Below, one piece after another: positions 5,600 through 18,458 of a stretch of 64,000 nucleotides of DNA (position 1 is its first letter; every line of letters starts with the position of its first letter). This DNA is from Kocuria rosea (GTDB lineage: Bacteria > Actinomycetota > Actinomycetes > Actinomycetales > Micrococcaceae), in the NCBI RefSeq assembly GCF_023715525.1, contig NZ_JAMBOG010000002.1:1-64000 (forward strand), read 5' to 3'. The notes under the pieces are model-generated. The model did no database searches, was not told the origin of the DNA, and saw nothing but the letters and a program-made list of their open reading frames with translations. The position numbers were made by a program, and so were the translations under genes.

Positions 5600-8338
<2,739 letters not shown>

Positions 8339-8428
8339 GCCGGCCCCTCCGGTGCACCACGGCGCCCCGGTCACCCCGCGCGGGTGGCCGGGGCGCCGTC
8401 GCCGTCCGGGCCGGTGCGCCCGGTGCTC

Positions 8429-8434
8429 TAAGCT
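8429..8434 (+). promoter_or_regulatory. -10-like hexamer TAAGCT, leaderless layout
   Basis: TAAGCT ends 7 nt before the ATG of the fasR-type gene, which has no purine-rich ribosome site. A transcript from this hexamer would start at or next to the initiation codon. The same layout recurs at six other genes in the window. Confidence 0.55.
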
Positions 8435-8441
8435 CGGGGGC

Positions 8442-9731
8442 ATGGCCGGACAGGACGGGAATTCCACCACGCGCTGGTTGCGCGCCCCCCGCAAGCGCCC
8501 CGGGGGGACCGCGGAGAAGGTCCGCGCCCGCCCCGCCGCACCCCCGCACCCCCGGACCCTGGAGAACCTGAAGGCGAACCTGGGCACGATCTCGACGGTC
8601 GCGACCCGCCGCCTCGAGACGGACCTGCCGTGGTTCCAGCAGCTGCGCGCCGACGAGCGCTCCGAGCTCGGGCTGGTGGCGCAGCGGGGCATCTCCTCCT
8701 TCGTGCGCTGGTACGAGGACCCGGAGGAGCCCCTGTGGGTGCTCACCCAGGTCTTCCGCAACGCCCCCACCGAGCTCACCCGCTCCATCTCCCTGCAGCA
8801 CGCCCTGCAGCTGCTGCGGATCGTCGTCGACGTCGTCGAGGAGATGGTCCCGGAGCTCGCGAAGCACCACGACGAGGCCGCCCTGCGGGAGGCCGTCCTG
8901 CGCTACTCCCGGGAGATCGCGTTCGCGGCCGCCGACGTCTACGCCCGCGCGGCCGAGAACCGGGGCTCGTGGGACGCGCGCCTGGAGTCGCTGGTCGTCG
9001 ACGGGATCCTGCGCGGCGAGCACTCGGACTCCCTGCGCTCCCGGATCGCCGCGCTGGGGTGGGCCTCGACCGGACCCGTCACGGTGCTCACGGGGTCCGC
9101 GCCGGAGGCGACCGGCCCCTCCACGGTGGCCCGGCTGCGCCGGCTGGCCTGCCGCTACGCCCAGGACTCGCTGGTCTCCATCCAGGGCGACCGGCTCATC
9201 CTCGTCCTCGGCGGCGTGGCCGACCGCGACCTCGCCCTGGAGAAGCTCACCGCCGCCTTCGGCCCCGGCGCCGTGGTGCACGGGCCCGAGGCGCCCACGA
9301 TCTTCGAGGCCGGACGCTCGGCCCGGCTCGCGCACGCCGCCCTGTCCGTGGCGCCGGCCTGGCCCGCCGCGCCCCGGCCGGTCCACTCCGAGGACCTGTG
9401 GCCCGAGCGGGCCATGGCCGGGGACGAGGCCGCGCGCACCGCGATGGTCGAGTCGATCTACCGTCCGCTGACGCGCTCGGCCACCGGGCTGGTGGAGACC
9501 CTGTCCACGTACGTGTCCGTGGGCCACTCCCTCGAGGCCACGGCCCGGGAGCTGTTCGTGCACGCCAACACCGTGCGCTACCGGCTGCGCCGGATCTGCG
9601 ACCTCACCGGGTGGGACCCACTGGTCCCCCGCGACGCGTTCGTGCTGCACTGCGCCCTCGTGGCCGGCCGGCTGGCCGACTCCTGCCCGCCGATCGACAC
9701 CTCAGCGCCCCCCGCCCCGCCCGTCTTGTAG
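8442..9731 (+). CDS. fasR: PucR-family regulator, FasR-like activator of fatty acid synthesis genes
   Basis: 429 aa. The C-terminus (about 370-410) carries the PucR helix-turn-helix, VGHSLEATARELFVHANTVR followed by YRLRRICDLTGWD. Upstream is the GGDEF-like/CdaR-type middle region. In Streptomyces coelicolor, FasR is a PucR-like protein encoded immediately upstream of fabDHPF and activates that operon; the gene order here is identical. The ATG at 8442 was chosen because TAAGCT ends 7 nt before it and coding character begins there; reading could extend to 8352 but without support. The palindrome at 9726-9742, overlapping its stop codon, is a candidate target. The symbol rests on synteny. Confidence 0.8.
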   Translation: MAGQDGNSTTRWLRAPRKRPGGTAEKVRARPAAPPHPRTLENLKANLGTISTVATRRLETDLPWFQQLRADERSELGLVAQRGISSFVRWYEDPEEPLWVLTQVFRNAPTELTRSISLQHALQLLRIVVDVVEEMVPELAKHHDEAALREAVLRYSREIAFAAADVYARAAENRGSWDARLESLVVDGILRGEHSDSLRSRIAALGWASTGPVTVLTGSAPEATGPSTVARLRRLACRYAQDSLVSIQGDRLILVLGGVADRDLALEKLTAAFGPGAVVHGPEAPTIFEAGRSARLAHAALSVAPAWPAAPRPVHSEDLWPERAMAGDEAARTAMVESIYRPLTRSATGLVETLSTYVSVGHSLEATARELFVHANTVRYRLRRICDLTGWDPLVPRDAFVLHCALVAGRLADSCPPIDTSAPPAPPVL

Positions 9732-14669: not shown

Positions 14670-15742
14670 TCAGCGGCGCCGCCAGCCCTCCCCCGTGCCG
14701 TCGGCCAGCCCGCGCTCCTGGAGGCGGAGCAGCCCGCCGAGCACCTCCCGCGGGGACAGCCCCGCGGTCCGGGCGAGGCGGTTCGGACCGCTGCGCACCG
14801 TCAGCGGCAGGGCGTCGAGCAGCCGCCGGTCGGGCGCCGAGAGCCCGTCGACGGCGGCGGCGGGGGCGGTGCGCTCCGGCGCCGGGGCGGCAACGAGGGG
14901 CTGGACGAGCTCGAGCACCTGGTCGACGTCGGTGACCAGCACGGCGGTGCCCTCCCGGACCAGCCGGTGGCAGCCGGCCGACGTGCCCGTGTGGACGCTG
15001 CCCGGCACGGCGCCCACGGGACGGCTGAGGCCGTCCGCGTGGTGGGCGGTGTTCCGGGCCCCCGACCGCCACCGGGCCTCCACGACGACGGTGCTGGCCG
15101 CGAGGGCCGCGATGATCCGGTTGCGCTGCAGGAACCGGTACCGGCTCGGCGTGCCGCCGGGGGCGACCTCCGACAGCAGCAGTCCTGCCGCCTCGATGCG
15201 GGCAAGCAGCGCGTCGTTGCCGCGCGGGTGGAAGCGGTCGATCCCGCCGGCCATGACGGAGACCATGGGCGGGGCGGCGGCGTGCGCGGCGTGGTCGATG
15301 CCGTGGGCGCCGCCGGAGACGACCGTCCAGCCCCGTGCGGCGAGCCCTCCGGCGAGGTCCATGGCGACCTGGCTCCCGTACGCGGAGCAGTCGCGGGAGC
15401 CCACCACGGCGACGGAGCGCGAGACGGGGAACGGCAGCCCCCGGCGGTGCCCGCGGCCCCACAGGCCGACGGGCGCGGCGAGGCCCAGGCCGTCGAGGGC
15501 CGGCGGCCAGTCGGGCTCCTCCGGAACGGCGAACCAGCCCCCGCACGCGGCCGCCGCCTCGAGGTCGCGGACGGGGTCGAGGAGCCCCGCACGAACGCCG
15601 CGTGCTCCACGGGCCCGAGCACGGCCAGCAGCAGCATCGCGACCGGGTTGGTCGGCTCCACGAGGCGGGACAGCCCCGCCCGGGCAAGACGCACCCGGTG
15701 CGGGTCGGCGGGGGCGGCGGGAGCGGTCGGTGCGGGGTCCAC
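14670..15742 (-). pseudogene. dprA: DNA processing protein DprA, one frame break
   Basis: The Rossmann-like DprA core is clear: VAVVGSRDCSAYG, VVSGGAHGIDHAAH, GGIDRFHPRGN, LLSEVAPGGTPSRYRFLQRN and a C-terminal winged-helix-like tail. The N-terminal part starts at a GTG with AGGAGG 6 nt ahead and reads LARAGLSRLVEPTNPVAM up to AAFVR. It then shifts into a different frame. Adding one base in the GGGG run (plus-strand CCCC at 15585-15588) restores one 357-codon frame (RGLLDPVRDLE). DprA loads RecA on incoming single-stranded DNA during transformation. As read here it would be truncated. Either real decay or a homopolymer read error is possible; the broken comM next door favours decay. Confidence 0.8.
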
Positions 15743-15788: not shown

Positions 15789-16359
15789 TCAGGGGGGGCA
15801 CGAGCGAGCGGAACCACAGGGCGGCGCCCACGTCCTCCGTGCTCGGTGCGCAGCGCCCGTCGAGATCGGCGAGGGTCCAGGCGACCCGCAGCACCCGCTG
15901 GTGGCCGAGGGCGGTGAGCGTGCCCCGGTCCATGGTCCGCTCCAGCAGGGCCGTCACGGACCGGGGCGGGCGCAGGGCGCCGTGCAGCAGCCGTCCGCCG
16001 AGCTCGGCGTTGGTGCGCACGCCCACCGGGCCGAGCCGCTCGGCCTGGGCCGTCCGCGCCCGGGCAACCCGGCGGGCGACGTCCGCGGTCGAATCCCCTG
16101 TCCGGCCCCGGCGGCGAGCTCGCCGTAGGAGACGGGGGCACGGCGAGCTGCAGACCACCCGGTCCAGCAACGGGCCGCTGAGCTTGCCGAAGTACGACCG
16201 GCGCTCCCGCGGGGTGCAGGTGCACTCGGCCCCGCGCCCGCTCCCCCGCCCGCACGGGCAGGGATTGGCGGCGAGCACGAGCTGGAAGCGTGCCGGGCAG
16301 GTGGCCGAGGCGAGGGAGCGGTCGATCGTCACCGCGCCGCACTCGAGCGGCTGGCGGAG
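15789..16359 (-). pseudogene. comM: ComM/YifB (Mg-chelatase-like ATPase), C-terminal remnant
   Basis: This piece encodes the last part of ComM. It begins LRQPLECGAVTIDR, followed by PARFQLVLAANPCPCG, SYFGKLSGPLLDRV, a RTNAELGG segment and ALTALGHQRVLRVAWTLADL. Between 16095 and 16156 three single bases appear to be missing, which together cost one codon and scramble about 25 residues (intact frames read LQLAVPP and SYGELAAGAG). A C7 run at 15792-15798 (G on plus) carries one extra base that hides the natural TGA at 15789. ComM is a hexameric helicase that aids branch migration in transformation. The 5' side ends abruptly at an IS relic. Confidence 0.82.
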
Positions 16360-16774
16360 GGCCGAGCTGGGCTTCGGCTCCGGAATCACCTGCTGGCGCC
16401 GGCTACGGGCCTGGCAAGAGGCTGGCGTGTGGGAAAAGCTACACCACGCCGTGCTCGAGAAGCTCGGGCAGGATGGGGCGCTCGACTGCTCCCGGGCCTG
16501 CCTGGACTCGGTGAGCGTGCGGGCCAAAGGGTGGGTGAGCTGACCGGGCCCAACCCCACCGACCGCGGCAAGGCCGGCACCAAGCACCACTTGCTGGTTA
16601 CGGCCGACGGGTTGCCGTTGGCGGTTGCGGTGACCGGGGCCAACCGGCACGACTCCATGCTGGTGGAGCCGATCCTGGACGGATTGGTCCCGGTCAGTAC
16701 ACCTAGGGCCGGGACTCCCGAGACGCCGGCCGGTCAAGTTGCACGCGGACAAGGCCTACGACAACAGCGGGGTC
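16360..16774 (+). mobile_element. IS5-family transposase relic inside comM
   Basis: On the plus strand three frames together spell an IS5-type DDE transposase middle part: ELGFGSGITCWRRLRAWQ, DCSRACLDSVSVRAK, then GELTGPNPTDRGKAGTKHHL, AVAVTGANRHDSM and finally RRRPVKLHADKAYDN. At least two frame breaks occur, near 16530 and near 16710. The transposase N-terminus (roughly 60 residues) and the C-terminal part with the last catalytic Glu are absent, as are recognisable terminal inverted repeats. It sits exactly between the two parts of comM and is an immobile fragment. Confidence 0.8.
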
Positions 16775-16891
16775 GGGCAGGCCGACGGTCGAAAACGCCG
16801 CCAGGGCCTGGCCGATGTCGGCCTCGACCTCGACCATCGACCCGTCGAGCCCCACGAGGGTCACCGCCCACGTGCGGGCGAACCCGTTCAT
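16775..16891 (-). pseudogene. comM: ComM/YifB N-terminal remnant
   Basis: About 39 codons starting MNGFARTWAVTLVGLDGSMV and ending IGQALAAFSTVGLPD, which is the conserved ComM N-terminus (VEVEADI..GLPD). Directly after GLPD the sequence turns into the IS relic. Compared with a normal ComM of about 510 residues, roughly 280 residues of the middle, including the Walker A region, are missing. The insertion was therefore accompanied or followed by a deletion. Confidence 0.8.
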
Positions 16892-17055: not shown

Positions 17056-18369
17056 TCAGGCCTCGTCGCGCAGGACGGGGAGCGAGGCCGCCGGGGAGGA
17101 GGAGGTGGCCGGGGAGGAGGAGGTGGCCGGGGAGGGTGAGGTCGTCGGTGCCGCCTCAGGATCAGTCGCCTCAGGACCGGTGGTGCTCCCGGCGCTCGCG
17201 GTGGGGGTCGGCGCGCCGGCCACCGGCGCCGGCGGCCACGGCCGGCGCGTGGCCGCCGCGGTGGGCGAGACCGTGGGCGCAACCGGGATCGTCGCCGCCG
17301 CCGTGGGCGTGCCTGTGGGCGTGGGCGCAGGCGTGGGGTTGCCGGCCGTCCCGACCGGGCCGGGCACGGTCGGTGACGGGGTCGGCTGGACCGGGGGCGT
17401 CGTCGGGGCCGGCTCGACCGGCAGCGGAGGTGCGGTGGTCGGCTCCGCCGTGGGCGGCTCGAGCGGTTTGGCGGGCGGCGGCGCGGGCTTCGCGGGCGGT
17501 GGCGCGGGCGGCAGGGTCGGCACGGGCTCCACCGGCTTCGGGGCCGGCTCGGGCTTCACGGGCGCCGGGGCGGGGGCGGGCTCCGCCGGCGCCGGGGCCG
17601 GCTCCGCCGGCGCGGGGACGGGAGCGGGCTCCGCCGGTTCCGGAGCCTCCTGGGTGGGCTGCTCCTCCCGGTACTGGAGCTCCTCGGGGCCGTGCCCGAC
17701 GGGCGCCGGACCGAGCGCCCGCTCGTGCAGGTAGGGCGTGAGCTCGACGTCGTCGAAGGTCTGCGGCAGGTGGTCGAACTCGCCGATCATCAGCTCCCGG
17801 CCCGTGCCGCCTGCCGGCACGACGCCGGTGTACCGGTCGATGAGCTCGTGTGTACGGGCGTCGAGCGCGGCGCCCTCCTGCAGGTTCGGGGACGATCCGT
17901 CGGCGCGCCAGTATCCGCCGAGGGCGGAGCGGTTGGGGTCCCACTCCCCCAGGACCTCGGCGGCGGTCTCGAACGGGAAGAGCCCGCCCTCGTGGCTGAT
18001 CACCTTCAGATCCTTGATCTCGACGGGCCGGGTGCCCTTGGAGTTGTCGATGTGCACCTGGACGTAGGTGACGGGCTCGACCCGGAGGTCGCGCCGGAGG
18101 CGTTCGACGTGCTTGTCGGGCGCGGGCGCGGTGGGCAGGTCGAAGGTGATGACGGCGCCGTCCTCGGTCTGGAGGGCGTAGGCGCCCTGGCTCAGGCCGG
18201 TCGGTGCCGGGGTGACCGTGCCCGGTTGCGCGACCGCCTCGGTCTCGGGCCGGTTCAGCAGGCCGCACCCCGTGGCGGCGAGGGCCACGACCCCGGACAC
18301 GCCGGCGATCAGGGCTGCGGTGAGCGCCGGCGCACGGCGTGATGCCGCGATCGGTCCGCATGCCGCCAA
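17056..18369 (-). CDS. Predicted lipoprotein with long Pro/Ala/Glu and Ser/Thr-rich C-terminal tail, unknown function
   Basis: 437 aa from a TTG that has ACGGAGG 7-8 nt ahead; an in-frame GTG at 18417 would add 16 Arg-rich residues. The N-terminus is a signal peptide with hydrophobic LTAALIAGVSGVVALAA and lipobox ATGC. Residues about 45-200 form a folded-looking domain (QTEDGAVITFDLP, YVQVHIDNSKGTRPVEIKDL, GEFDHLPQTFDDVELTPYL). The remaining half is low complexity: EPAPAPAEP-type repeats, then Pro/Thr-rich sequence and a near-exact PATSSS repeat. The tail may span or bind the cell wall. I do not recognise the family. It lies between yraN and the comM remnant, genes that are usually adjacent. 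Confidence 0.7.
   Translation of the reverse strand: MAACGPIAASRRAPALTAALIAGVSGVVALAATGCGLLNRPETEAVAQPGTVTPAPTGLSQGAYALQTEDGAVITFDLPTAPAPDKHVERLRRDLRVEPVTYVQVHIDNSKGTRPVEIKDLKVISHEGGLFPFETAAEVLGEWDPNRSALGGYWRADGSSPNLQEGAALDARTHELIDRYTGVVPAGGTGRELMIGEFDHLPQTFDDVELTPYLHERALGPAPVGHGPEELQYREEQPTQEAPEPAEPAPVPAPAEPAPAPAEPAPAPAPVKPEPAPKPVEPVPTLPPAPPPAKPAPPPAKPLEPPTAEPTTAPPLPVEPAPTTPPVQPTPSPTVPGPVGTAGNPTPAPTPTGTPTAAATIPVAPTVSPTAAATRRPWPPAPVAGAPTPTASAGSTTGPEATDPEAAPTTSPSPATSSSPATSSSPAASLPVLRDEA
17088..17136. repeat. 18-bp tandem repeat coding for PATSSS units
   Basis: The unit GCCGGGGAGGAGGAGGTG (plus strand) occurs about two and a half times, in frame, at the C-terminus of the lipoprotein gene. Length variation between strains is likely because the unit is a multiple of three. 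Confidence 0.7.
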
Positions 18370-18458
18370 GGCGCACCTCCGTCGTTTCCCCGGTCGTCGA
18401 CGGTTCCACAGTGGCACGTCCTACGGGGCATGTCACGCCGCCACTCGAGGGGCGCGTC

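Follow-up and report, generated by a model that had tools for sequence, protein, structure and literature searches.

A split comM gene among damaged natural transformation genes in a Kocuria genome

The comM gene in the Kocuria DNA analysed here is a pseudogene, and it is highly probable that its loss belongs to a wider breakdown, specific to this lineage, of the natural transformation pathway of the Micrococcus type. The stretch under study, hereafter the window, is 64,000 nucleotides long and comprises positions 1–64000 of contig C12 (259,849 bp) in a high-GC draft genome (G000) of 3.64 Mb and 73 contigs that is rated 99.99% complete. Four genes are damaged in this genome, namely comM, dprA, comEA and comEC, and two tad ATPase loci of its congeners are absent at their expected places. 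Judged from gene content, natural transformation has very probably been lost in this species, most of whose sister species keep the genes.

The comM gene is split and lacks its middle

The window carries lepB, rnhB, yraN, a proline-rich open reading frame (ORF), comM and dprA in a minus-strand order that matches three relatives, and comM keeps its position between yraN and dprA as it does in those relatives. By dprA protein identity, the nearest named relatives are Kocuria dechangensis (79%), K. polaris (75%) and a Kocuria MAG (75%). The edges of the damage to comM were placed by blastn against three Kocuria loci: L061 (K. dechangensis), L062 and L063. With all three, the match on the C-terminal side ends at 16362 and that on the N-terminal side begins at 16772, which leaves a foreign block of 409 bp at positions 16363–16771.

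An earlier note on this DNA had described a comM gene that is split, with its middle lost and a plus-strand IS5-type fragment in between. This arrangement is confirmed by blastn to the three relatives and by Pfam, although the block is slightly shorter than the 415 bp or so first given. The part absent from comM corresponds to L061 positions 6069–6911, which amounts to 843 bp or 281 codons (codons 40–320) and agrees with the original estimate of roughly 280 codons. This part includes the Walker A motif (GPPGSGKT, residue 224), as had been noticed, and also the Walker B motif (LFLDE stretch, residue 306).

Two remnants of the gene are left on the minus strand, and alignment to the comM genes of the relatives identifies them as codons 1–39 and codon 321 to the end, in the numbering of L061. 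The N-terminal remnant (16772–16891) falls below the Pfam cut-off for the ChlI domain (E = 0.19), but it shares 79–83% protein identity with the relatives and its place and strand fit. The description of this piece as a perfect ComM N-terminus does not hold, as it carries several substitutions. The C-terminal remnant (15789–16362) reaches the ancestral stop and retains strong domain matches (PF01078 and PF13335; Mg_chelatase, E = 1.3e-23, and Mg_chelatase_C, E = 3.2e-21). This piece, previously taken to end at 16359, is present but not undamaged: three single bases have been deleted from a stretch of about 55 bp, and the stop is out of frame. The profile for the whole protein, TIGR00368 (ComM/YifB), scores 114.6 bits against a cut-off of 362.4 and covers only positions 313–490 of 499.

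The same profile reveals no second comM in G000, where its sole match is the C-terminal remnant, and the other intact copy whose existence the earlier note had left open was not found. Across the genus, TIGR00368 exceeds its cut-off in 24 of 27 genomes, with G000 counted among the 27. The three genomes without a full-scoring comM are G000, G021 and G001, the last being a 79%-complete genome with two comM pieces 122 bp apart. Because no intact copy was found in a 99.99%-complete genome and other genes of the pathway are also broken, the loss of ComM from this lineage is supported at the genome level. The earlier suggestion that the lineage has lost a transformation helicase stands as far as ComM is concerned. 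The helicase role in this monoderm would hold by extension, since the available part of one source (PMC11472951) states a key role of ComM in transformation for diderms.

The counts of substitutions by codon position give no clear sign of relaxation in comM or dprA relative to intact genes of G000, and the intact genes of the window lineage likewise carry many first- and second-position changes.

Between yraN and comM lies a 453-aa ORF (17056–18417, minus strand) with a long proline-rich tail. The ORF has no Pfam match at E = 1 and can be aligned to relatives over its first 231–236 residues only; its N-terminal half is common to the Kocuria relatives.

An internal transposase fragment fills the gap

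The block at 16363–16771 (plus strand) matches the transposase domain DDE_Tnp_1 (PF01609) with E = 2.6e-5 and 24.5 bits, against a cut-off of 23, and is colinear with annotated IS5 family transposase genes. The best match with that annotation comes from Pseudonocardia alni (69.4% identity over 99%), where the fragment corresponds to approximately nucleotides 192–600 of an 828-nt coding sequence and is wholly internal to the transposase gene. Among plasmid records, 270 match the fragment, 40 of them across 80% or more of its length; a K. rosea plasmid gives the best match, with 77.4% identity over 98%. In the alignment, comM sequence directly flanks the fragment on both sides. Neither IS end and no whole transposase gene is present at the locus, and the junctions with comM share only a few bases, which point to no particular mechanism.

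A plain IS insertion was rejected as a sufficient cause of this structure because both IS ends are absent. An internal fragment without its ends requires either at least two further deletions or the capture of a DNA fragment. Most simply, the fragment would derive from an IS5 element that inserted here and was cut back on either side by subsequent deletions, or from DNA captured as filler during break repair. An account in which an IS5 element transposed into comM, killed the gene and deleted the neighbouring part of it, with the other losses coming afterwards, is possible but rather unlikely. IS5-type sequence does lie exactly in the comM gap, but both IS ends are missing and no close donor copy was found in G000, the longest other match reaching 73% over about 230 bases. 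On these grounds, the IS5 element cannot be identified as the initial lesion. Of the earlier proposal that the element caused the deletion, there remains the observation that IS5-type sequence fills the gap; a causal role in the loss of comM is unproven, and the gene may have been either still functional or already dead when the fragment arrived.

The adjacent dprA gene is disrupted

Immediately beyond comM, dprA (14670–15742, minus strand) also carries lesions, as established by alignment to three relatives and by its reading frames. Deletions of 45 and 76 bp in the N-terminal part and of 21 bp in the Rossmann part are private to the window and shared by none of the three relatives. With a private 3-bp insertion that is also found in the N-terminal part, the net result is that this part is out of frame with the Rossmann part. 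The gene scores 183 bits with TIGR00732, against a cut-off of 191.15; the dprA of one congener, G023, also falls just under this cut-off (189.9). The frame of the DprA core (Rossmann) is open from 15788 to 14670, with a Pfam E value of 2.2e-49, and on this basis a shortened DprA product could be made.

It is exceedingly improbable that errors of sequencing or assembly made these lesions. The genome is a high-GC draft and some of the lesions are one-base gaps in runs of G or C, as such errors would predict, but the large lesions are of another kind: the replacement of 843 bp by 409 bp in comM, the dprA deletions of 45, 76 and 21 bp and the loss of 5.5 kb at a tad locus described below. Furthermore, all 23 of the reference ORFs aligned as controls, which represent about 15 genes (several of the ORFs being overlapping or antisense) and most of which had passed a filter for GC3 above 0.93, applied to those from L061, L063 and L226, show no frame break, and the genome is 99.99% complete. 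Even lepB and yraN, whose alignments contain window-private gaps not divisible by three, each stay in one frame.

Damage to comEA and comEC

The comEA–comEC locus of G000 lies within C45:149500–155500. In the six congeners examined (G005, G021, G003, G014, G006 and G023), comEA has a conserved upstream part, which we take to be SLBB-like, in one frame with its HhH part. In G000, these two parts are in different frames. Similarly, comEC forms a single continuous match to the G003 protein in all five congeners examined (G005, G021, G014, G006 and G023), whereas the G000 gene matches in three separate pieces that occupy two reading frames, and the frame of its N-terminal part contains five premature stops. 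The comEC core of G000 still scores above the PF03772 cut-off, with a match to part of the domain, but the channel core and the C-terminal part are never in one reading frame.

In another congener (G010:C1), comEC is also in two pieces (L238 and L239, at about 129 kb and 163 kb), split near residue 293 and about 34 kb apart.

Two tad loci are missing from their expected places

TadA, as recognized by TIGR03819, exceeds its cut-off in 26 of the 27 genus genomes, and the exception is G000. In G005, the main tad operon encodes Ssd/CpaE (TIGR03815), TadA (TIGR03819) and two TadE proteins, and is bordered by a DECH helicase gene on one side and a DNA-polymerase-like gene on the other. In G000, only 71 bp of a single contig (C8, near 38500) separate these flanks; a deletion has removed about 5.5 kb, and a 72-base stretch of a tadE gene still matches.

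A 13-kb stretch of G021 served as the query for a second tad locus. Its positions 2541–2692 and 7366–7606 have matches that abut at C12:203957/203958, and the ATPase of this locus (query 6318–7295) is absent from the expected place. The left flank is a match of 152 bases with nothing matching further left, and query positions 7644–8716 match another contig; a single clean deletion at this locus is not proved. Assigned by bit score rather than by tree or synteny, the ATPase of this second kind is near full length in 18 of the 27 genomes, truncated in five, present as fragments in G005 and missing from G000, G007 and G015.

The sole remaining tad-type ATPase of G000 (C8:7505–8482, L227) is of a third kind and scores 361.6 bits, below the TIGR03819 cut-off. 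By score, ATPases of this kind are present in some congeners only.

Probable loss of the pathway as the common explanation

In Micrococcus luteus, transformation is abolished when comEC is lost and requires both tad clusters, tadB excepted, according to the part of the published account available (PMC4322843). Set against this model, G000 lacks intact comEA, comEC and dprA as well as two tad loci, which may correspond to the two M. luteus clusters. Because comEA, comEC, dprA and comM are damaged and two tad loci are absent while unrelated genes are intact, the loss of transformation followed by decay of its dedicated genes is the simplest explanation of these findings.

The presence of the genes in congeners points to a transformable ancestor. 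After transformation had ceased to be of benefit, or one of its steps had failed, selection on the dedicated genes would have been lifted, and each would then have decayed through mutations of its own. The outcome would be a cell without a functional uptake channel, a competence pilus of a known kind or a ComM helicase, and thus without natural transformation. The order of the lesions is not recorded in the sequence.

Several observations count against a loss of the pathway: one tad-type ATPase is left, the core frame of DprA is open, comEC partly passes PF03772, and the codon-position counts show no clear relaxation of comM or dprA. We consider it very unlikely that this species is still transformable by means of a shortened DprA and the one tad locus left to it, in the absence of ComM. 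The open DprA frame from 15788 to 14670 and the remaining TadA-type ATPase would fit with persistence, but no single reading frame of comEC covers the channel core together with the C-terminal part.

Decay of the whole pathway, the reading that we favour, makes this species a natural example of an actinobacterium with damage to, or loss of, every known dedicated transformation gene, in a genus most of whose members retain these genes, and the contrast offers a ready comparison for what transformation does in the genus. That ComM was lost along with the pathway also suggests that it belongs to this pathway in a monoderm, a setting in which the function of ComM is less well established.

comM as a target of mobile elements

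In the congener G021, comM is split at codon 308–310, the Walker B site, by a 42-kb insert (L150–L152; C5:134055–176044) with a GC content of about 55%, compared with 72–76% in its flanks. Of ten insert ORFs searched, one encodes a large serine integrase (phrog_95, E = 8.3e-103), and matches to portal, terminase, head protease, tape measure and distal tail proteins among the rest identify the insert as a predicted prophage. A search for repeats near the G021 junction found nothing of use. Among 395 genomes of the family, the three next-best matches to this integrase share 52–55% identity with it (L184 in G214, L185 in G378 and L186/L215 in G080). They come from three other genera of the family, and all adjoin a comM gene cut at the same residue as in G021.

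In total, 4 of 30 integrase loci examined lie at this one comM site. The other 26 include G118, in which the integrase is at comM residue 79–86, and G220, in which it stands beside a nearly whole comM.

The possibility that the window scar is exactly that of a G021-type prophage is not supported, given that its break points (codons 39 and 321) differ from codon 308–310. A broader version holds that a larger element entered comM at the ATPase-motif site, as the G021 prophage did, and was later deleted together with its comM flanks to leave one IS fragment. We regard this as unlikely. The integrases of G021 and its three relatives do sit at codon 308–310, a site that the lost codons 40–320 span, and such targeting is common in the part of PMC10083194 available. 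Against this, the edges of the scar do not coincide with the site, the locus has no phage gene and no large serine integrase, and the best match in G000 to the G021 integrase reaches only E = 3.9e-7.

A still more far-reaching proposal, which we hold to be similarly doubtful, is that the scar is the end stage of a mobile-element invasion at the comM ATPase-motif site, after which transformation failed and dprA, comEA, comEC and the two tad loci collapsed. If this were true, element targeting would drive whole lineages of the genus out of natural transformation, through mobile elements in comM, in a tadA gene and probably in comEC.

Targeting of comM by serine integrases has already been published, and the present cases are further instances. 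In the portion of their study available, Durrant et al. report that 12.4% of predicted site-specific integrases target homologs of magnesium chelatase/ATP-dependent protease, and that integrase targets are enriched for competence genes (PMC10083194). G021 and its three relatives at one comM site resemble these large serine integrase systems, as far as that source describes them, and add actinobacterial examples to the published targeting of competence genes by mobile elements. The window differs from them in having no integrase and in its break points. In Acinetobacter baumannii, the available parts of two sources (PMC11472951; PMC7508600) describe inactivation of comM by AbaR islands and other mobile elements, where foreign DNA interrupts comM as it does here and is linked to low transformation. 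Those cases involve whole islands in many strains with measured rates, whereas the present one involves an IS fragment, the loss of 281 codons and breaks in other pathway genes, from which the loss of transformation is predicted. The comEC gene of Piscirickettsia salmonis, according to the available part of PMC12955456, likewise combines decay of a dedicated transformation gene with transposable elements, although in a different phylum and with the elements in comEC rather than comM.

No paper turned up in a literature search that combined comM, attB and Arthrobacter, and among the ten listed of 236 matches for any two of Kocuria, natural competence and comEA, none was relevant. The part of PMC6907783 available contains nothing on comM.

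A near-full comM is missing in 10 of 80 named loci. Three of these are cut by contig ends (L095, L107 and L121), five are truncated inside a contig (L075, L105, L106, L108 and L135) and two have no comM near dprA (L087 and L100). In three Arthrobacter/Pseudarthrobacter loci (L105:6646, L108:6708 and L135:6703), comM begins only at residue 219–226, next to Walker A and inside the contig.

Serine integrases also occur beside tad genes of the genus. Those of L240 (G026), L241 (G016), L245 (G024) and L195 (G005) directly adjoin a truncated tadA-type ATPase gene, which is cut near residue 60 of the compared fragment, or near residue 158 in G005. The same arrangement of integrase and tadA-type gene is found at G013:C1:1005932–1008109, as judged from coordinates alone.
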